DNA of 64,000 nucleotides from Amyelois transitella (taxonomy: Eukaryota; Arthropoda; Insecta; Lepidoptera; Pyralidae), in the NCBI RefSeq assembly GCF_032362555.1, contig NC_083507.1, positions 9,303,001-9,367,000 of the forward strand, in the 5' to 3' direction. This document shows, in pieces, positions 6,244-49,246 of this stretch. Every line of letters starts with the position of its first letter. The stretch's first letter is position 1. The notes under the pieces were generated by a model, which was not told the DNA's origin, ran no database searches, and saw only the letters and a program-made list of their open reading frames with translations. The position numbers and the translations under genes were made by a program.

Positions 6244-8570
6244 TTACGAATAATAACGTCGTACTTCTGCCAGTATAACTTCGTAGGAGGATTCATCTAT
6301 AATTATAAATCGTTTGGCACGTCTGCTAAAATAATAGATATCGCCGGTGTAGATATCAAACCATAATGCATGAATATGCAAATCGTGTTTTTCTAATCTT
6401 TTTTTTAGCATTCCGTACGATGCCACGTTTTGAAGTTGTTGTAGCGTGTTAACCTGTAAAATATAATTAAATATGTTTAATATGATTCATACCTAATAAA
6501 TATACTTCATCCAAAGTTTCCATCAATAACTCTATATTTGGTTACGTACTCTTCTACATTCCTACGTAATACCTAATATCATAAAAATCTGTACGTTTTA
6601 GATAGATGCATAACTATATAACTAAAACATCTATCTAACTAAAAAAATAAAAAACCAATGCTTGTAGGTATGTATCAATATTGAATCAATGATATATATG
6701 AGTAAGTATAAATAGAATGCTAGGAAGTTTCACCCGCTAGTTGGCGGAAGTCAGTAAGGGGAGGTTCTTCCATGATGACCCCGGAGAGCTTTTTGGAGGA
6801 TATCCCCGGAATAAAACTCAGGAACATCATTGTCCTTGTTGGTAACAGCTATATTCTAATAATATTTCCAGCTATGATCGGGTAATAAGCGTACCTGTGA
6901 TAACTTGTCTTCTATGCAAAATTTATTGTCAGGATCAATATATGCCACAAATTTTCTTTGAGGCGTTTCAGCACTAAAAACCATTGGTTTTTCAAAGTCA
7001 TAGTTCATATCGAGAAATTTTTTAAGACTGGATTCTCCATGAGTACAAAGCCATGATTTTAAAGGCGAAATTCTTCTTTGTTCCTGTATAAACAGAAATA
7101 GTGTACTTAGGTAACTAACCAATGTAAAGGTGTGAAATTTAACGACGTAAGCTTTTATTTTAACAATACTTACAACACTCGATTCTTCCTTACTCTTCAA
7201 TTTATACAAAAGATTCATTGCTTTACAATCACTATGACCACATACGATTATATGTCTTATATCGTTAATAATGCAACCTAGTTCTAAAGCTGCTGGTTCG
7301 CAACTAGTCATTTCATCTGCAAAATGTTGAGAATGTGGTATCACGTTTCCAGCATTTCGGACTGCAAAAATAATCCATAATTAAGTTTTTGAACATTTCA
7401 AACATAAAACTGTGAAAAATGTGGTTAAAATTACACACCAACGAACATATCGCCAACACTAGTTTCAGTAAATCTTGTTGGAATCATTCGACTGTCCATG
7501 CAGGTGTAGAAGACTGCCTTAGGCTAAGACATTTTAAAAATGGTTCATTAAACAAAAAGTCAGGAAGTTTGCAGAACTTTAATATACAGAAGGAAACATT
7601 TGTTAGAGCATGCGGAAGTTTCCTATTGTTATTGAGTCGATCTCATATACATGGGCGAAATAATTGTAGATTATTATTGTGGAACAAAAATACTCTGTAG
7701 AAATATTGTATCTAGTTGTAGTTGGTAATTTAAAAATCTACTGGGTATACGATAAATGTAAGGTATAATAATAATGAAGTGATAATCCTTCCATTCGTGC
7801 ATATTATGATTCTTGATAGTGATTTTGTGAATTAGAACTTTTGGAAGTCATCAAAAAACAATTTACTTTTTGCATTGTAAAAATATTTGTCTTGTAATTC
7901 TTTGTCGTTATCTTTTTCCACTTTCTACGTGGGATCGGCAAAGTATGTTAGTTTCACTGGTCACTCCCTTTCTACTCATACTATCCTTTACGCCGTCTAT
8001 CTATCTCTTTTTCGGTCTTCCCTATTTCTTTAACCTTTCACTTCTATATTTAAGGCTCTTTTAGTAACATGACCTTCCTCTCTTCTCACGATGTGTCCGT
8101 AACATAATATTTTAAAATGTCTTAAATTTTCCCATAATTGTAAACACCCTAACAAGAGAACTTCAGATTTCTCGTTCAGAACGGCTTTTGTATTTTGTAG
8201 GCATTCTAAATTCTTTGGTTTAAATATTAACATTGATTCTGATTGTCATTGTCATGTGTTGTCATGCAAATAACTAATTCAAAATGTCAAAACAGAAAGT
8301 TTAAGAGACTTGACGTATTTTGATTTTAACTTATATTATTTCATTTTATTTCAGTAAATAATTGAGCTGATTGCATGTTAATTAATACATTTGTGTTATC
8401 TGAACACCGTTTAATAAATTAGATACAAAGAAATAAAGCTAATAATTTAAAGGTAGGTGCAGTCCTCCCGAACTTACCGTTGGGTTGTCTTTTACTTCTT
8501 GAAATTGTTTAACCATGCTTGCACGGTCTATAACGCGGTATCGCATAATACCCCGAAGAATCCGTTCCAT
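6244..8570 (-). CDS. CAHbeta: Beta-class carbonic anhydrase
   Basis: This zinc enzyme interconverts CO2 and bicarbonate; the insect beta enzyme is known to be mitochondrial. Exons are complement(8478..8570), (7439..7523), (7174..7361), (6895..7083) and (6244..6453), all with GT/AG introns, giving 254 aa, essentially the fly length. The protein starts MERILRGIMRYR. Zinc and catalytic residues are visible: C39-M-D41-S-R43 in exon 2 and H102-S-D-C105 in exon 3 (my numbering). Other family blocks are VRNAGNVIPHSQHF, CEPAALELGC, WLCTHGESSL, RKFVAYIDPDNKF and the C-terminal HALWFDIYTGDIYYF ending in EVRRYYS. Intron 1 is the longest (about 950 bp). The gene faces PTPA about 690 bp away, so the two may share a promoter region. 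No targeting peptide is obvious by eye. Confidence 0.95.
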
Positions 8571-8948: not shown

Positions 8949-9221
8949 TACATACATATCATCACGTCTATATCCCTTACGGGGACAGACAGAGCCAACA
9001 GTCTTGAAAAGACTGAAAGGCCACGTTCAGCTACTTGGCTTAATGATAGAATTGAGATTCAAATAGTGACAGGTTGCTAGCCTGTCGCCTAAAAAATGAA
9101 TCCCAAGTTTGTAAGCCTATCCCTTAGTCGCCTTTTACGACATCCATGGGAAAGAGATGGAGTGGTCCTATTCTTTTTTGTATTGGTGCCGGGAACCACA
9201 CGGCTCATAATATAATTTTTA
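8949..9221 (+). repeat. SINE-like repeat, best full copy (family A), with probable target-site duplication
   Basis: This is the clearest copy in the window. In order it has TACATACATATCATCACG, TATATCCCTTACGGGGACAG, AGACTGAAAGGCCACGTTCA, TTGAGATTCAAATAGTGACA, TTAGTCGCCTTTTACGACAT and GTGCCGGGAACCACACGGC. It is flanked by TTTTATTCACA at 8938-8948 and again at 9222-9232, a likely 11-bp target duplication. It sits in the 5' UTR intron of PTPA. Confidence 0.8.
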
Positions 9222-9256
9222 TTTTATTCACACATGTTAATGTGTTATATCTTCAG

Positions 9257-10297
9257 ATGGACTCTGCAATGGCAATGGGCAGTAGAGCTGGTAGTAGGGC
9301 AGGAAGTAGAGTAAGTGGGGCTGGAATGACAGGTGACACTAAAAAGGAAGAAATGGTACCTGGAGTACTTCCACAAAATCACAGGTTTATTGAGCCTACC
9401 AAGGCTATTAAAACTATCACTGATATGGCTATTTGGGAAAAATCAGAAGCTTACATGGAATATACAGGGTTCATTGCTACGCTGAATGAAGCAATCAAGG
9501 GTAAACCATTATCAGTAGATTGTAAAATTTCTGACAATCTCAAGAAACTTATGGAGATGCTAGATAAAATTGATAAGTTAATAGATGCATTTCCCCCTAT
9601 TGAACAACCACAAAGGTTTGGTAATGTAGCATTTCGTGATTGGCTCAACAAAATTAAGGCAAGCAGTACCCATTTGCTGCAGGATGCTTTGGAGACAAGC
9701 CTGCATTTGGCTATACCAGAATTAAAAATTTACTTGGAAGAGAGTTTTGGCAACTCCACTAGGATAGATTATGGCACCGGCCATGAGATGGCATTTATAA
9801 TGTTTCTTTGTTGTTTGTATAAAATTATGTTCTTGCAGACTGAGGATAGTGTGCCAACAGTATTTATGGTTTTCAACAAATATCTCCATATAGCAAGGAA
9901 ATTGCAACAGACATATAGAATGGAACCGGCTGGAAGCCATGGAGTTTGGAGCTTGGATGACTATCAATTTGTACCTTTTATTTGGGGAAGTTCTCAGCTC
10001 ATAGATCAACCTAAAGTATACCCCCCTGCAAAGTTCCTCGAAGATGACATTATTGATAAATATGCAGATGAGTACATGTTTCTTTCATGCATTAAGTACA
10101 TAAAGGAAGTTAAGAAAGGTCCATTTGCCGAGCATTCTAATCAGTTGTGGAGCATCAGCGCTGTTGGCTCGTGGACGAAAATTAACCAAGGTCTTATTAA
10201 AATGTACAAGAAGGAAGTTTTAGCCAAGTTTCCCGTTGTGCAACATGTCTTGTTTGGGTCGCTTCTGCCAATACGCAGATTTCCAATTAATCATTAA
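9257..10297 (+). CDS. PTPA: Serine/threonine-protein phosphatase 2A activator (PTPA)
   Basis: PTPA is a cytosolic and nuclear ATP-dependent chaperone and peptidyl-prolyl isomerase-like activator of PP2A. The 346-aa frame is uninterrupted. Family blocks are FIEPTKAIKTITDMAIW near the N terminus, QRFGNVAFRDWL, GTGHEMAF (173-180), YRMEPAGSHGVWSLDDYQF from 220, then FIWGSSQLID. The C terminus has WSISAVGSWTKINQGLIKMY, as in animal PTPAs. The start chosen is the ATG directly after TATATCTTCAG, an acceptor for a 5' UTR intron. The 37 upstream in-frame codons are mostly SINE translation and were excluded. The N terminus carries a small repeat (GSRAGSRAGSRV). An AATAAA lies at 10771-10776. The gene has one coding exon, unlike its neighbours. 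Confidence 0.95.
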   Translation: MDSAMAMGSRAGSRAGSRVSGAGMTGDTKKEEMVPGVLPQNHRFIEPTKAIKTITDMAIWEKSEAYMEYTGFIATLNEAIKGKPLSVDCKISDNLKKLMEMLDKIDKLIDAFPPIEQPQRFGNVAFRDWLNKIKASSTHLLQDALETSLHLAIPELKIYLEESFGNSTRIDYGTGHEMAFIMFLCCLYKIMFLQTEDSVPTVFMVFNKYLHIARKLQQTYRMEPAGSHGVWSLDDYQFVPFIWGSSQLIDQPKVYPPAKFLEDDIIDKYADEYMFLSCIKYIKEVKKGPFAEHSNQLWSISAVGSWTKINQGLIKMYKKEVLAKFPVVQHVLFGSLLPIRRFPINH

Positions 10298-21091: not shown

Positions 21092-23131
21092 ATGGCCCGT
21101 CATCGCAATGTGAGGAATCGAAAATACTCTGACGATTACGACTATGACGATGTTTACGGGCATTCAGTGGAAGAAGATTCATGTTTATCCCCGAGTGACA
21201 CCGCACAATGGATTTACGATCGTTCTCAGAACCAGCAGGCGATATCAAACTTTATGGAAAGCCATGACAACATTCAAGAAGAAGTGGAGGACGAGGTTCC
21301 TGACGCTCAGCATCCAATCCTTGATCGCCGCGATTCGGTAGATCTGCGCAGCCTCAATCTCGAAGAAGATGAAGAAGCAAAGCTAATGTCTTGTTTAGAT
21401 GAGCTGCGAAATGTTCTAGGTGATACATTTTCCGAAAACATACTCATACAATCCGTGCTTAAACATAAATTCGACGTTACTAAAGCCTTAGATGATATCT
21501 TAAATATCAATAATAAGACACCGAAAACAGTCGAAGCAGAGTCAATCAAACCCCTGCCTATTGTTACTATAGATACTATAAAAGCTCCTGTCATATCAAC
21601 AAAAGATACAACTCCCAAAGTTATTGCTTCAAAATTAGAACCTAGTGGCAGTGGTGCAATTATCAAGGGATTCAAGGTGGACAACAGTGTAAGCTCTAGT
21701 AGTCAACCCAACACTCCTCGTGACCAATCTCCAGCGGAAAGAGTTTTGACACCAAAATTTGATCAAGATGAAATCAAGCCAGCTAAATTGAAAGAGAACA
21801 AAATAGATCCCAATGTACAGTATTCTAATGAAAGAGGCTCTGATAAGGATCATTTATACATTGTAGTAATAGGCCATGTTGATGCTGGTAAATCTACTCT
21901 AATGGGGCGGTTGTTGTGTGATCTTGGTGAGGTAACTCAAAGAACTATGCACAAATATGAACAGGAGAGTAAAAAACTTGGAAAACAAAGTTTCATGTAT
22001 GCATGGGTGTTAGATGAAACTGGAGAGGAGCGAATCAGGGGCATAACTATGGATGTTGGTCGAGCCCAGTTTGAAACAAAGACTAAGAAAGTAATAATTC
22101 TTGATGCTCCAGGACATGCTGATTTTATTCCTAATATGATAACAGGGGCAGGACAAGCTGATGTTGCCCTTCTAGTGGTTGATGCCACCAGAGGAGAGTT
22201 TGAATCTGGCTTTGAATTTGGTGGGCAGACACGAGAACATGCTCTCCTTGTGAGATCCTTAGGTGTCAATCAGTTGGCTGTTGCGGTCAATAAGCTGGAC
22301 ACAACAAACTGGTCACAGGATAGATTTAATGAGATAATCAAGAAACTGAAACTGTTCTTAAAACAGGCAGGGTTCAAAGATTCTGATGTGACATATGTAC
22401 CTTGTTCAGGCTTGACTGGTGAAAATTTGGTGAAAGCTCCTGCAGAGCCAGAGCTATTAAAGTGGTACAATGGACCTTGCCTTTTAGAAGTAATTGATAA
22501 TTTTAATGTCCCAGACAGACCAGTCTCTAAACCCCTGAGACTATCAGTCAATGATGTGTTTAAAGGTACTGGTTCAGGTTTCTGCGTTTCTGGTCGTATT
22601 GAAAATGGAATACTCAGTAAGGGGGACAAGATTTTAGTGTGTCCCACAAAGGAGGTGGCAGAAGCTCGAAGCATAGCTATCAATGACATGCCCAATAATA
22701 TTGCTTTTGCAGGTGACCAAGTCACTGTCACACTGTCTGGAGTGGACATGCAGAATGTTTCTGTTGGATATGTATTAAGTGATCCAGTACAACAGGTGCC
22801 TGTTACTACTCGCTTTGAAGCTAGGATAGTTGTATTTAATGTCAAAGTACCTATAACTAAAGGCTACCCAGTTTTGATTCACCACCAGTCATTAGTGGAG
22901 TCAGCTAATATTGTTAAATTGAAGGCTTTGTTGAATAAAAGTACAGGAGAGCTGATCAAGAAGAAGCCACGTTGTTTAGGAAATAACTCGGTAGCTGTTG
23001 TTGACATAGAAGTGTGTCGTCCAATCTGTGTAGAGCGCTATAAGGATGTCAAAGAGCTGGGGCGCGTCATGTTGCGTGTTTCAGGCGTCACGATTGCTGC
23101 TGGATTAGTTACTGATATTCTAAGTATTTGA
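21092..23131 (+). CDS. HBS1: HBS1-like translational GTPase
   Basis: HBS1 with Pelota (Dom34) binds stalled ribosomes with an empty A site and starts no-go and non-stop rescue. The 679-aa frame is uninterrupted in one exon. The N terminus has the HBS1 signature (MARHRNVRNRKYSDDYDYDD, then YGHSVEEDSCLSPSDTAQWI), followed by an acidic helical region to about residue 140 and a Ser/Pro/Lys-rich linker to about 250. The eEF1A-like GTPase follows: G1 GHVDAGKST at 261-269, GITMDVG in switch I, G3 DAPGHADF at 338-345 and G4 NKLD at 400-403. The beta-barrel domains II and III follow, ending GVTIAAGLVTDILSI. The first ATG is used and gives the expected N-terminal motif. Long antisense ORFs across it are shadows. 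Confidence 0.97.
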   Translation: MARHRNVRNRKYSDDYDYDDVYGHSVEEDSCLSPSDTAQWIYDRSQNQQAISNFMESHDNIQEEVEDEVPDAQHPILDRRDSVDLRSLNLEEDEEAKLMSCLDELRNVLGDTFSENILIQSVLKHKFDVTKALDDILNINNKTPKTVEAESIKPLPIVTIDTIKAPVISTKDTTPKVIASKLEPSGSGAIIKGFKVDNSVSSSSQPNTPRDQSPAERVLTPKFDQDEIKPAKLKENKIDPNVQYSNERGSDKDHLYIVVIGHVDAGKSTLMGRLLCDLGEVTQRTMHKYEQESKKLGKQSFMYAWVLDETGEERIRGITMDVGRAQFETKTKKVIILDAPGHADFIPNMITGAGQADVALLVVDATRGEFESGFEFGGQTREHALLVRSLGVNQLAVAVNKLDTTNWSQDRFNEIIKKLKLFLKQAGFKDSDVTYVPCSGLTGENLVKAPAEPELLKWYNGPCLLEVIDNFNVPDRPVSKPLRLSVNDVFKGTGSGFCVSGRIENGILSKGDKILVCPTKEVAEARSIAINDMPNNIAFAGDQVTVTLSGVDMQNVSVGYVLSDPVQQVPVTTRFEARIVVFNVKVPITKGYPVLIHHQSLVESANIVKLKALLNKSTGELIKKKPRCLGNNSVAVVDIEVCRPICVERYKDVKELGRVMLRVSGVTIAAGLVTDILSI

Positions 23132-44988: not shown

Positions 44989-45173
44989 TAGGGTAAGAGT
45001 GGCAACCTTCGTACACCTTTTTTTCTATGGCTTATAAAAAATTAACTAACTGATATTATTGACTTATTTTAGTACTATGTTATCATGAATATTCTAGGCA
45101 TTAATAAAACTTACAACAATTTCGAAAAAAATCTAACGTGCGCTATCAATGACGATTTTTCTGAAAAATGGGA

Positions 45174-45255
45174 ATCGTGCGAATGTGCCCCATAGCAAGG
45201 GTACATTCGTACAGTGCCTAGGGTGCTTTCGTACATGGTAGGGACCTTTCGTACA
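45174..45255 (+). repeat. Left subterminal motif cluster of the pogo element
   Basis: Three direct copies of GGGNNCNTTCGTACA at 45199-45213, 45221-45235 and 45241-45255, plus a degenerate inverted copy near 45174-45191 (CGAATGTGCCCC). Another TTCGTACA sits in the TIR at 45008-45015. These are likely transposase binding sites. Confidence 0.8.
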
Positions 45256-45750
45256 ATGAAATAAGAAAACTATTTACTTATTCAACACATATATTTTTTA
45301 ATCACTTTTATACATATTATGTAATATTAGCTCTTGTACTTATAATTATTCAATATTGACGTCTATTATAATTAAAGCAGTCTTTACTTGGTTAATTCTA
45401 GAAATACCTTTAGTTTTCAACATAAAAGTTAAAGAAAATTTACCATTTAATATAAAAAAATATTTAAAAAAATGCTTATTTTAAGATATTTTTATAGCAT
45501 TAATATTAATTGCACGAAAAGAGATTTATATTTATTAAAAAATATATATTAATTCTAACAAACAATGTAATTAGTTAAAGTCAGTATCATCCAAAACAAA
45601 ATAATTTTACACAAAAGAAGCTTAAATAATAGTCAACATTGGACCAAATAGTCTTATAAACTTTTCGTACCCATTAGGTACAGTTAGTTGAAATTTATAT
45701 TTATAACCTATTTAGGTATATAAACCTGCAATAATAATCAAATTATTAAA

Positions 45751-47838
45751 CTACTGAACATTATACCCAATAAAGTTTCTCTCAAAACAAAATATGTTTG
45801 CAGTCCTTGCAGTGCTTGCTGATTTGGGTGGAGGTAAAACTGCAACGACGTCCGACAAAAAGACCGTTCCTTCATCTATCACATTTGGAAAAACAAACTT
45901 CCAAGAACCTGGTTTCTTTCTTAAAAAAGAAACGTGATATTCCATTGGTCCATATTTCTTTAAAACTTTTCCGACATAATGAAGAACAGTTGACTTTTTT
46001 TCAAATTGTACTAATACGAAAGTTTCTTCATTAATGTTTTGGCTCAATACTGGTTCTTCTTTATTAGTTGCTTCTTCAAAATCCGATGCTTCAGTCGATA
46101 AAGGTGAAGAACTGCTCTCCCTTAAACTTATATTAATTTCATCTTCACTATCAGTTTCTAACTCTGCATCTTTTTTTTGTATCTTTGGTTTCGTTATTTT
46201 ATCAGTCTTGACTATCATCTTCAATGCACGCTTCATTTCTTTAGCTTTATTTCTTCTTTCTTGCTCTTGTTTTTTCATTTCCTTTGCCTTTTGTATTTCT
46301 AGAAGCCTTTGCTTTTCTGGTGTGTCTGTGTAAATTCTAGATTTTCCTGGTAATTTTCCTTTCTTCGCCTTTGTACTTTGACTCTTATTTACTTTAGGAT
46401 AGGGTCGAACTGCCTCTGGAGTTATTAGTCCAGGAGCAGATGATGATGGTGCATCAAAGTCTATTGATTGTAGCAGCAGGGATGATGACGATGGCGGTGA
46501 ATTCAGTGGAGTTGATTGTTCAACAATTACGTTTTCTTCACTAGGGTCTTCTTGTTGTTGCCTATTAATATTTATAGTAGCGTTAGAATTGGATTGGTAA
46601 ACTTGAACCGGAGCAAAATCTTCGTCACTAAAAGCAAGTTTATTATATGGCCATATGCCCGTTTTTTCAAAAGCACTCATTATGTTTTTATTGGTGAAGG
46701 ATTCAAAGTAGGCTATTTTAGCTAATTTTGGGATTTGGTAAATGTTCATAGTCTTTCCTGGATTTGATACATGCCAGTCGTTATATGCTACTTTCAATTT
46801 GGCCTTAAAAGGGCCAAATACCCCTACGTCTAATGGCTGAAGACGGTGCGTTGTATGCGGAGGAAATGAGATATAAACTATGCCGTTGTCACGGGCGTAA
46901 TCTATAGCTTCTACCGTGACGTGACTCTCATGATTATCGACCAATAACAGAATAGGGTTTTCTTTTGTGCATGATGTCTTCTTTTGAATATGTTTTAGCA
47001 CTTGTATGAAAATTTCCGAATTTATCCACCCACTTCTTGTGGCAACACCCAAGCTACCTTCAGGGGCACCTGTCATAAAATGGTCCTTAAAATGCACTCT
47101 TGGAAAAATAAAAAGTGGCGGAATAGTGTTACCGCTGGCCGATATTATACCCCCGAAAGTTACAAGTTCACCTCTTTCTCCTGAGACTAGTTGGCCGACT
47201 TGCTTGCGACATTTTTCGGCTAATACTTTCGGTGTGCTCATAACAGTAGAAATTCCTGATTCATCAAAATTATAAATTCTGTCACAAGTAAAATTATATC
47301 TGGTCAGTACAGCTTCTAAATTATTAAAAAAGTCATTGACAGCAGTCTTATTAAAACCATACGCACGGGCAGCGCTTGTATTCTCCGGCTTTCTTAGACT
47401 TAAGTTGACATTACGGTGGCGATAACTTTTTGCCCAGTCCAAGCCAGCCATTCCATTATGATCCCAACTAGAAGGATACTCTAACTTATTTGCTTTTGCA
47501 AACTCATACGCTAATTTTCGAAGTTGTACAAGTGTAAGCCCGTAATTCATACGAGAACATTCTGCAATATAGTTATTTAGAAGTACTTCTTCTGACGTGG
47601 TGAATACCTGTTTAGACGTATATTTGGATGCAAAACTACGTAGGGGAGCTTCATTGGTAGTATTTTTTTTTATTTTTGCAAGTCGTGATTCCAGCGTAGA
47701 AGGCTTAATACCGTATTTGGCTGCCGATTTCCTTATAGATAACGTTTTATCTACGACTTCTTCTATAGCAGACTCCATCGCCACTTCATCTACATGTCCT
47801 GACCTCGAAGATTCCTTTTTCTTGTATACGCGCGGCAT
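45751..47838 (-). CDS. pogo/Tigger-family transposase (DDE_1), intact
   Basis: Predicted to cut and paste its own element in the nucleus. The frame encodes 695 aa with no stop or frameshift. Residues about 20-58 (ESAIEEVVDKTLSIRKSAAK, YGIKPSTLESRL) form a Psq/CENP-B-type helix-turn-helix. A CENP-B-like second DNA-binding region follows to about 155. The DDE_1 core has NFDESG with D192, LLLVDNHESH with D301, and THRLQPLDVGVFGPFK with D337, giving a DD35D spacing by my count, then FEKTGIWP near 390. A Ser-rich linker (about 430-490) and a Lys/Glu-rich stretch (about 500-555) precede a conserved-looking C-terminal domain (about 605-695, ETFVLVQFEKK to FCFERNFIGY). The first ATG (MPRVYKKKES) is a natural start. 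Long plus-strand ORFs across it are shadows. Confidence 0.93.
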   Translation of the reverse strand: MPRVYKKKESSRSGHVDEVAMESAIEEVVDKTLSIRKSAAKYGIKPSTLESRLAKIKKNTTNEAPLRSFASKYTSKQVFTTSEEVLLNNYIAECSRMNYGLTLVQLRKLAYEFAKANKLEYPSSWDHNGMAGLDWAKSYRHRNVNLSLRKPENTSAARAYGFNKTAVNDFFNNLEAVLTRYNFTCDRIYNFDESGISTVMSTPKVLAEKCRKQVGQLVSGERGELVTFGGIISASGNTIPPLFIFPRVHFKDHFMTGAPEGSLGVATRSGWINSEIFIQVLKHIQKKTSCTKENPILLLVDNHESHVTVEAIDYARDNGIVYISFPPHTTHRLQPLDVGVFGPFKAKLKVAYNDWHVSNPGKTMNIYQIPKLAKIAYFESFTNKNIMSAFEKTGIWPYNKLAFSDEDFAPVQVYQSNSNATININRQQQEDPSEENVIVEQSTPLNSPPSSSSLLLQSIDFDAPSSSAPGLITPEAVRPYPKVNKSQSTKAKKGKLPGKSRIYTDTPEKQRLLEIQKAKEMKKQEQERRNKAKEMKRALKMIVKTDKITKPKIQKKDAELETDSEDEINISLRESSSSPLSTEASDFEEATNKEEPVLSQNINEETFVLVQFEKKSTVLHYVGKVLKKYGPMEYHVSFLRKKPGSWKFVFPNVIDEGTVFLSDVVAVLPPPKSASTARTANIFCFERNFIGYNVQ

Positions 47839-47890
47839 GGTCCTATAAATAAATTTAATATTATAATATTTGTTACAAAAAAAGTTTCAT

Positions 47891-47968
47891 GGGGTACATT
47901 CGTACAGCACGGGGAGCATTCGTACATTATACGAATGCTCCCCACGTAAACTTGTACGAAAGTACCCC
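47891..47968 (+). repeat. Right subterminal motif cluster with perfect hairpin
   Basis: Two direct copies (47891-47906, 47911-47926) are followed by two inverted copies (47930-47944, 47953-47968) of the GGGNNCNTTCGTACA motif. GGGGAGCATTCGTA at 47911 and TACGAATGCTCCCC ending at 47944 are exact complements, forming a 14-bp stem. The cluster lies just upstream of the transposase ATG. Two more inverted copies lie near the right TIR (48294-48308 and 48311-48325). Confidence 0.85.
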
Positions 47969-49246
47969 AACCCACGGTATCAGTAAATATTTTTTCAAAT
48001 AAATAAATGGTTTAGAAATTTCTAAAAAACATCGTTAAAATATGAAACTAAAACTTTCATTCATCCATTAAATCAAACTTGTTATTCAATCAAAGCTATG
48101 ATGCATCAGTAATATTGGTTTGAAATATTACAAAAAAATTACTTACCGAGTATAAAAACACGTCACGACATGCAACGGCGAAGTTCTCGGCTGGACTGTC
48201 GCGGCGTTCCGTATGTGGCGCGGGTGTTGTGAATGTAATCTACGCACACTACTACAACAGCGCTGACACATTTACAACTCTAGTTAAGAACACTGTACGA
48301 AAGCTCCCTCTGTACGAAGGGTGGCACTTTCCCCCTACTATACAGTCAGCTAGCTAATATTATAAACATGGAAATCTACGTATGCTCTAATGTTCAATTA
48401 GTTTACAATGTTCGTACAAAATGGCCAGTATCTTCGATATTACGTTTGATGTATAGTGCCAGTTGGGAGTGGATCGTTTATGGATAGACGTAAACGTGAG
48501 ATTTATGGGTATTTTTTTTATAAAACATTCTGCCAAAAAACACGATTCTTCATCAATCATTATAATTTAGTTTACTTCCGGGAATTATTTCAAAAATTAC
48601 TTAAATCTTTAGTTTAAGATATTAAATTGTACACACCTTCTTTAAATTAGATCATAGGTAGACACCGGGTCCTCCCAGATTAATGTGAAACCAGAAAAAC
48701 GGGTAACGGGTGGTGGATTTTTATTATAAAATTTTTAAAAACAACATTTGCTTTCTTACCTATCTTCTTACGGGGAAGGAAACATCGCGAGGAGACCTAT
48801 ACAACTTGGCCAACCGGGACGACGCTAGGATGATAGAAATATTATTTTAACAGAATAAAAGTAGCACGTCTGCCCAGGACCCTACCCAGGGCACACTGAT
48901 TTACTGCAAGGGTGCGGTAGCTTTCCCATAATATTTGAATATGAAATGACGTTGCACGATTGTCAATATCCGCCATTAACTTGCCTTTACATGGTAAAAA
49001 GCAAGTAGAATATGTAGGGAGACTAGGGATAGAGGGATAACTCAGCCTACAGGGGAGAAAAACGCGGGTGGGATATTTGATATTCTTTTTCTGAAGCAGA
49101 CAATATGAACATAGAGAAAACTGTTGAATTAAATTATTATGGGGCATTTTAAAATTCACAATAATTGTCATATCATTTGGTTTCACAACATTGAATTGGT
49201 GTTTTGTAAAGTTGTAGAAGAACAAAAGAAATTACTTATTAAATAA

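Follow-up and report, generated by a model that had tools for sequence, protein, structure and literature searches.

Transposons of the pogo superfamily (pogo, Tigger, Passer, Lemi, Mover and Fot), a large group with many domesticated descendants, are described in the available portions of PMC7386202 as having a DDD triad, a helix-turn-helix (HTH) region, a TA target-site duplication and terminal inverted repeats (TIRs) of ≤40 bp, with sizes of 1.2-5.2 kb and 300-977 aa; DD35D groups occur in the superfamily according to the excerpted text of PMC7325037. Sleeping Beauty has the Tc1-type inverted repeat/direct repeat (IR/DR) layout, with ~220-bp TIRs, two sites per end and a PAIRED-like domain. 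It depends on a tetramer and on four sites, outer as well as inner; its ends are unequal, one having an extra enhancer half-site, its target is TA and its synapsis is multimeric (PMC7827188, in the part available).

We analysed a 64,000-nt stretch of the Amyelois transitella genome (NC_083507.1, positions 9,303,001 to 9,367,000; hereafter the window), which carries an intact 3,345-bp pogo-superfamily transposon at 44991-48335. Both ends of this element bear an array of a repeated motif. At least 13 pogo families in the same genome could be mapped at both ends; between them they use twelve different motifs, and the motif sites lie at nearly fixed positions. A first-pass annotation of this DNA had reported the array; what its reader could not see, and is more striking than the array itself, is that the site positions hardly vary between families whose motifs differ.

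The window element and its motif array

The transposase reads on the minus strand, and its start marks the 5' end of the element:

44989..44990: TA target-site duplication, 3'-end side
44991..45015 (+): TIR, element 3' end
45751..47838 (-): transposase open reading frame (ORF), 695 aa, HTH_psq and DDE_1, D192/D301/D337
47843..48146 (-): putative 5'-untranslated-region (5'-UTR) intron, GTAAGT at nt 190 to TTATAG before GACCATG, predicted from sequence only; holds the 5' inner cluster
48311..48335 (-): TIR, element 5' end
48336..48337: TA target-site duplication, 5'-end side

The first-pass annotation had called this an apparently complete pogo-type element with an unbroken ORF, three catalytic aspartates, imperfect TIRs and flanking TA duplications, and it was right on each count, coordinates included. 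The transposase matches DDE_1 (6.7e-15) and HTH_psq (3.3e-5) in Pfam. In an alignment of 17 sequences, D192, D301 and D337 are invariant, with 35 residues separating the last two (DD35D); DDE_1 is present in 17/17 aligned relatives, the window protein included, and the N-terminal HTH is HTH_psq in nine and HTH_Tnp_Tc5 in six. With aspartate as third catalytic residue, a psq-type HTH, a TA duplication and TIRs of ~25 bp (≤40 bp being the rule in most pogo-superfamily families), the element is a DD35D pogo-superfamily transposon; DD35D alone does not decide between named subfamilies (Passer, Tigger, pogoR). A structure predicted from the single transposase sequence (pLDDT 36.3, pTM 0.24) was not used, and a search of solved structures with that sequence returned a single chance-level match (E 0.94).

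The 15-bp motif GGGNNCNTTCGTACA has 11 matches at ≤2 mismatches in the window, where about ten had been claimed, direct and inverted, at both ends. All lie within the element; 2.10 were expected, and 0/100 shuffles reached 11.

45001..45015 (+): 3'-end outer site, inside the TIR, 1 mismatch
45176..45190 (-): 3'-end inner inverted site, map position ~186, weak (2 mismatches)
45199..45213 (+): 3'-end inner site, 198 bp from the outer site
45221..45235 (+): 3'-end inner site, 22 bp beyond the preceding one
45241..45255 (+): 3'-end inner site outside the common map
47892..47906 (+): 5'-end inverted inner site outside the common map; family C has one too
47912..47926 (+): 5'-end inverted inner site, second arm of a head-to-head pair
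47928..47942 (-): 5'-end inner site, +25 bp, 1 mismatch, arm of the head-to-head pair
47953..47967 (-): 5'-end inner site, 341 bp from the second site
48294..48308 (-): 5'-end second site, 17 bp inward of the outer site
48311..48325 (-): 5'-end outer site, inside the TIR, 15-mer with 2 mismatches, core CTTCGTACA intact

A spacing map common to diverged families

Of 583 transposase candidates 64 were scored, so that more families than the 13 may exist. Ten families (the window family is A) made the initial map, K followed, and X and W joined only once the map had been fixed. Elements were oriented by their transposase and TIRs were defined before sites were mapped. Further copies were dropped (L002, L003 and L005 of A; L009 of N; L023 and L024 of P; L027-L030 of M; the C29 copy of X; and L052, an older relative of B), as were L019 and L020 for the site maps.

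A blind 9-mer count found that divergent families repeat motifs of their own in the corresponding zones. A multi-site end is not peculiar to the window element, as first supposed; it is a common feature of pogo families here. The motif cores are TTCGTACA (A and B), TGAAAGAGCC (C), ACTTGATCCC (D), AAAGTAAC (E), GGCAAAACGGACC (F), AAGATGGGGTA (H), TAAGATGACATA (I, judged on L016), GAGTACGCA (J, judged on L018), GGCAAAACGGGT (K), TACCGGTCA (M), AGATGGCCA (X) and TAAAATTGCGC (W). Those of F and K are alike, as in part are those of H and I. Across the first eleven families the catalytic regions are 34-50% identical, the pair A-B (70%) apart; J and W share 66% over 402 residues, and there too the motifs differ and the map is kept. 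Co-variation of the HTH with the motif was tested and was weak.

At the 5' end, sites lie near nt 15(+), 32(+), 374(+), 399(+) and 409(-); at the 3' end, near 15(+), 186(-), 213(+) and 236(+). The sites form part of the TIRs themselves. The transposase of Drosophila pogo reportedly has a 12-bp binding sequence lying 14 nt in from each end and a second copy deeper inside, and the map sites at nt 14-25 fall at that place. The distance from the 5' outer to the second site is 16-18 bp in 13/13 families, and that from the second to the inner site 335-343 bp in 12/13 (mean 340.4, standard deviation (SD) 2.1). At the 3' end, outer and inner sites are 196-200 bp apart in 12/13 families (mean 197.6, SD 1.0), and the inner pair 21-23 bp apart in 9/13 (SD 0.6). 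The main distances, gathered by hand from the motif site maps, have SDs of 0.5-2 bp across families. There are departures: F and K have 14-15 bp between the third and fourth 5' sites (~25 elsewhere), H is without the 399 site, I has another 3' set except for a site at 214, the last 3' site of C and D is at ~247, and the 186 site of A is weak. Family M is the exception at 1 mismatch; allowing ≤2 gives sites at 373(+), 385(-) and 212(+). The spacers, by comparison, are essentially unalignable: over nt 45-365, identity between families is 0.29-0.42, highest for A-B, and local matches outside that pair are mainly short (e.g. 37 nt between B and M at nt 167-201).

To set the map against chance, we counted coincidences between family pairs, i.e. 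inner sites within 3 bp and in the same orientation, among 11 families (X and W left out, the A-B pair omitted; mismatch limit 1, raised to 2 for H and I and to 3 for F and K). There were 192 at the 5' end and 168 at the 3' end. Under 2,000 circular shifts preserving the within-family spacing, the mean was 11.6 at either end and the maxima were 40 and 38, respectively; with sites placed uniformly, the maxima were 30 and 38. The middles of these 11 elements hold only three motif matches in total.

A scan using the distances only, with no motif, exceeded all of its 20 shuffles at the 5' ends of N (L008, L009) and P (L023, L024, L026), two families not used in making the map. Over the 30 loci scanned it did so at 18 5' ends and 11 3' ends. 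It missed several loci with a clear motif map (L013 at the 5' end; L022 and L027-L030 at both; L006, L016 and L020 at the 3' end). L014 has the 3' map. Five families were fetched later, with the map already set: X and W match it at both ends, V in part, and U and Z do not; template tolerances were slightly wider here, and the comparison with 20 shuffles covers the earlier 30 loci. No map was recognised in U, Z, L010 or L025 (which are without recognisable ends), and the map is shifted or partial, despite relatedness, in V, Q (L012) and R (L017). In V (L079, L080, L083; C31:6206720; motif ATAGTTGCC) the 5' inner cluster is displaced by ~8 bp and a second outer site was not found at ≤2 mismatches; V is possibly an intermediate variant of the map.

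Copies, mobility and short derivatives

Across the 327 Mb and 33 contigs of the window's own genome, the window family occupies four sites, the window included. A full copy on C32 is 99.61% identical over 3,346 columns, and is present again in truncated form, its left flank unchanged (99.70% over 1,682). Another insertion on C32 is interrupted by other DNA (99.64% over 3,043, with patches of 284 and 58 bp at 98.2-98.3%); its pieces were taken as one copy whose ends belong together. On C2 there is a 1.6-kb internal-deletion derivative with both ends kept (99.75% and 99.50% identical). TA flanks both sides at 4/4 insertion sites, one being the interrupted copy with its ends taken as paired, and copies elsewhere in the genome also carry the motif array. 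Because copies at four sites are near-identical, the transposon appears to have moved recently. The first-pass annotation had named a single copy with no empty site elsewhere, copies lacking the array or low identity as points that would count against it; the element is multi-copy, the array is present and identity is high. Its phrase 'possibly active' is borne out as regards recent activity, with copies 99.50-99.75% identical over their main stretches; transposition would be by cut and paste. Joined flanks of the 2/2 insertions tested matched filled sites only and gave no empty site; as both flanks are single copy in this assembly, this carries no weight either way.

The sister family B, on C3, shares its motif core and map with A, to which its catalytic region is 70% identical. 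Shorter elements, each bounded by the two B ends at ~1.6-1.9 kb from one another, occur on C6, C9 (two), C18, C25 and C31; these six are absent among the transposase matches listed for the genome. Over the 519-528 bp that they share at the 3' end, identity to B is 97.7-98.1%. Of the elements examined, 6/6 retain the 3' sites, one of these having 1 mismatch, and 2/2 retain the 5' sites. The elements keep long end stretches along with the sites, and this is therefore co-retention, not proof of selection on the sites alone. The right tip is CCCC|TA in four of the six, L061 and L063 deviating, and a seventh element with B ends (L067, 835 bp) is without the 3' inner cluster. The interior of L061-L066 is unrelated and rich in TTCGGCTTCGGTCGG-type repeats. 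For family M, a pattern search detected 17 TIRs, of which one stands alone and the others form eight pairs ~2.6 kb apart; no short form was seen.

Several side observations concern the same elements and their surroundings. At C32:7.207-7.250 Mb of this genome (G000; L046-L049), pogo copies of A (three) and P (two) lie with repeated flanks, as either a local duplication or a transposon cluster. The last transposase residues of the C32 copies L002 and L003 are in a different reading frame, and the window's ending (…YNVQ) resembles that of B. By eye, a PHD-finger-like Cys/His pattern ends the transposases of L006, L008, L011, L015, L017, L020-L022 and L026; the C-termini of A and B look like a different domain. 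Neighbouring ORFs in the window include an HBS1-like translational GTPase (one 679-aa ORF, 21092-23131, +), a PTPA homologue (one 383-aa ORF, 9146-10297, +) and a carbonic-anhydrase (Pro_CA) exon (6856-7311, -).

Readings of the fixed distances, and known systems

We think it probable that the repeats are transposase-binding sites whose spacing is held by the assembly of a synaptic complex, comparable to the outer and inner repeats of Sleeping Beauty, though with more sites and unequal ends. The motif would be the binding site of the transposase's N-terminal HTH region. Sites in the TIRs, at nt ~14-25, would position the enzyme to cleave beside the TA, and the extra 5' site (17 bp inward) and the inner clusters (at the 5' end ~340 bp beyond that site, at the 3' end ~198 bp inward of the outer one) would load further transposase subunits. 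The result would be a synaptic complex, fixed in its geometry, that joins one 5' end to one 3' end. The 5' inner cluster, inside a putative 5'-UTR intron, may also let the transposase regulate its own gene. The motif would be free to drift with its transposase and the distances would not, which would give diverged families a common map; an assembled complex would be expected to put selection on distance and leave the sequence free. Conserved distances with a differing motif hint at a measured DNA-protein machine. Evenly poised, in our judgement, is the wider claim that this is a pogo clade with a measured, asymmetric transpososome scaffold (17, ~340, ~25 and ~10 bp at one end; ~170, ~198 and ~22 bp at the other), the distances staying fixed while the recognition sequence is rewritten, so that position is the heritable signature.

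The sites might instead be mainly an operator or enhancer through which the transposase or a host factor controls the promoter and 5'-UTR intron of the transposase gene, with the layout of promoter and splicing fixing the spacing. The 5' sites do flank landmarks common to several families: a splice-donor-like GTRAR near nt 192 (7/13 families, B left out; maximum 5 in 100 shuffles) and a T-run near nt 199 (7/13; maximum 4), and an acceptor-like AG stands immediately 5' of the ATG in A, B, D, K, N and P. These landmarks suggest a 5'-UTR intron with the 5' inner cluster inside it. No fixed-position TATA, initiator or downstream-promoter-element-like element was common to more than 4/13 families. 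The 3' end, past the stop codon, has an equally fixed map of its own, making promoter regulation unlikely as the sole cause; furthermore, the motif lies within the TIR, where cutting occurs, and the non-autonomous B elements retain sites at both ends, albeit within long retained stretches. As the main explanation we regard regulation as rather unlikely.

A chromatin ruler, in which the sites are bound as proposed above and the distances reflect the nucleosomes that fit between them, would place one in the ~198 bp of the 3' end and two in the 340-380 bp, roughly double, between the 5' outer pair and inner cluster; the resemblance is numerical only, and we consider this quite improbable. Hardly credible is functionless ancestry, with spacing inherited unselected through a recent family split or an exchange of ends: all families do share one genome, most have TAGGG-type tips, and A-B and B-M have their short alignable stretches, but catalytic regions as divergent as those of the eleven families, unalignable spacers elsewhere and differing motifs all speak against it, and unconstrained spacers that old should vary in length.

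If the spacing is functional, it shows how pogo transposons assemble their ends. The 13 families and twelve motifs are a ready data set on changing HTH specificity under constant architecture, and the map offers a motif-free way to locate transposon ends, as when it flagged the 5' ends of N and P. Were the scaffold reading true, a transposase's motif could be read from sequence alone. In titles and abstract starts of the open-licence literature we found no description of such arrays in pogo elements; older subscription work may differ. In the available portions of PMC7386202, PMC7325037 and PMC8472432 'subterminal' occurs 0 times, and once, in a reference title, in those of PMC9976928; 'binding site(s)' occurs 0 times in the same portions of the first two. 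A search of viral contigs with the single protein found no relatives, and neither did one of a genome-contig collection. A viral-contig search with the alignment found one element of 25% identity, L076, whose ends carry repeats and in which a 9-mer count showed no inner array; we suspect a fungal host.

Set beside the known systems, the window element agrees with the pogo superfamily, as excerpted, in its DDD triad, HTH, TA target, short TIRs and sizes, and differs in having 11 sites on an asymmetric map common to diverged families. The multi-site hAT elements (Herves, Ac, Tol2 and Tag1) likewise have short, repeated subterminal transposase sites and asymmetric ends; theirs is another transposase superfamily, and the available part of PMC3143072 mentions no base-exact map across families. 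Sleeping Beauty, judged on the part of its description at hand, is the nearest worked-out precedent, with outer and inner sites, unequal ends and a TA target, synapsis being what we infer for the element here. The window element has no long ~220-bp TIRs each with two direct repeats; most of its sites lie outside TIRs of ~25 bp, and, unlike Sleeping Beauty, it has more sites, some of them inverted, an HTH_psq DNA-binding domain and aspartate as the third catalytic residue.
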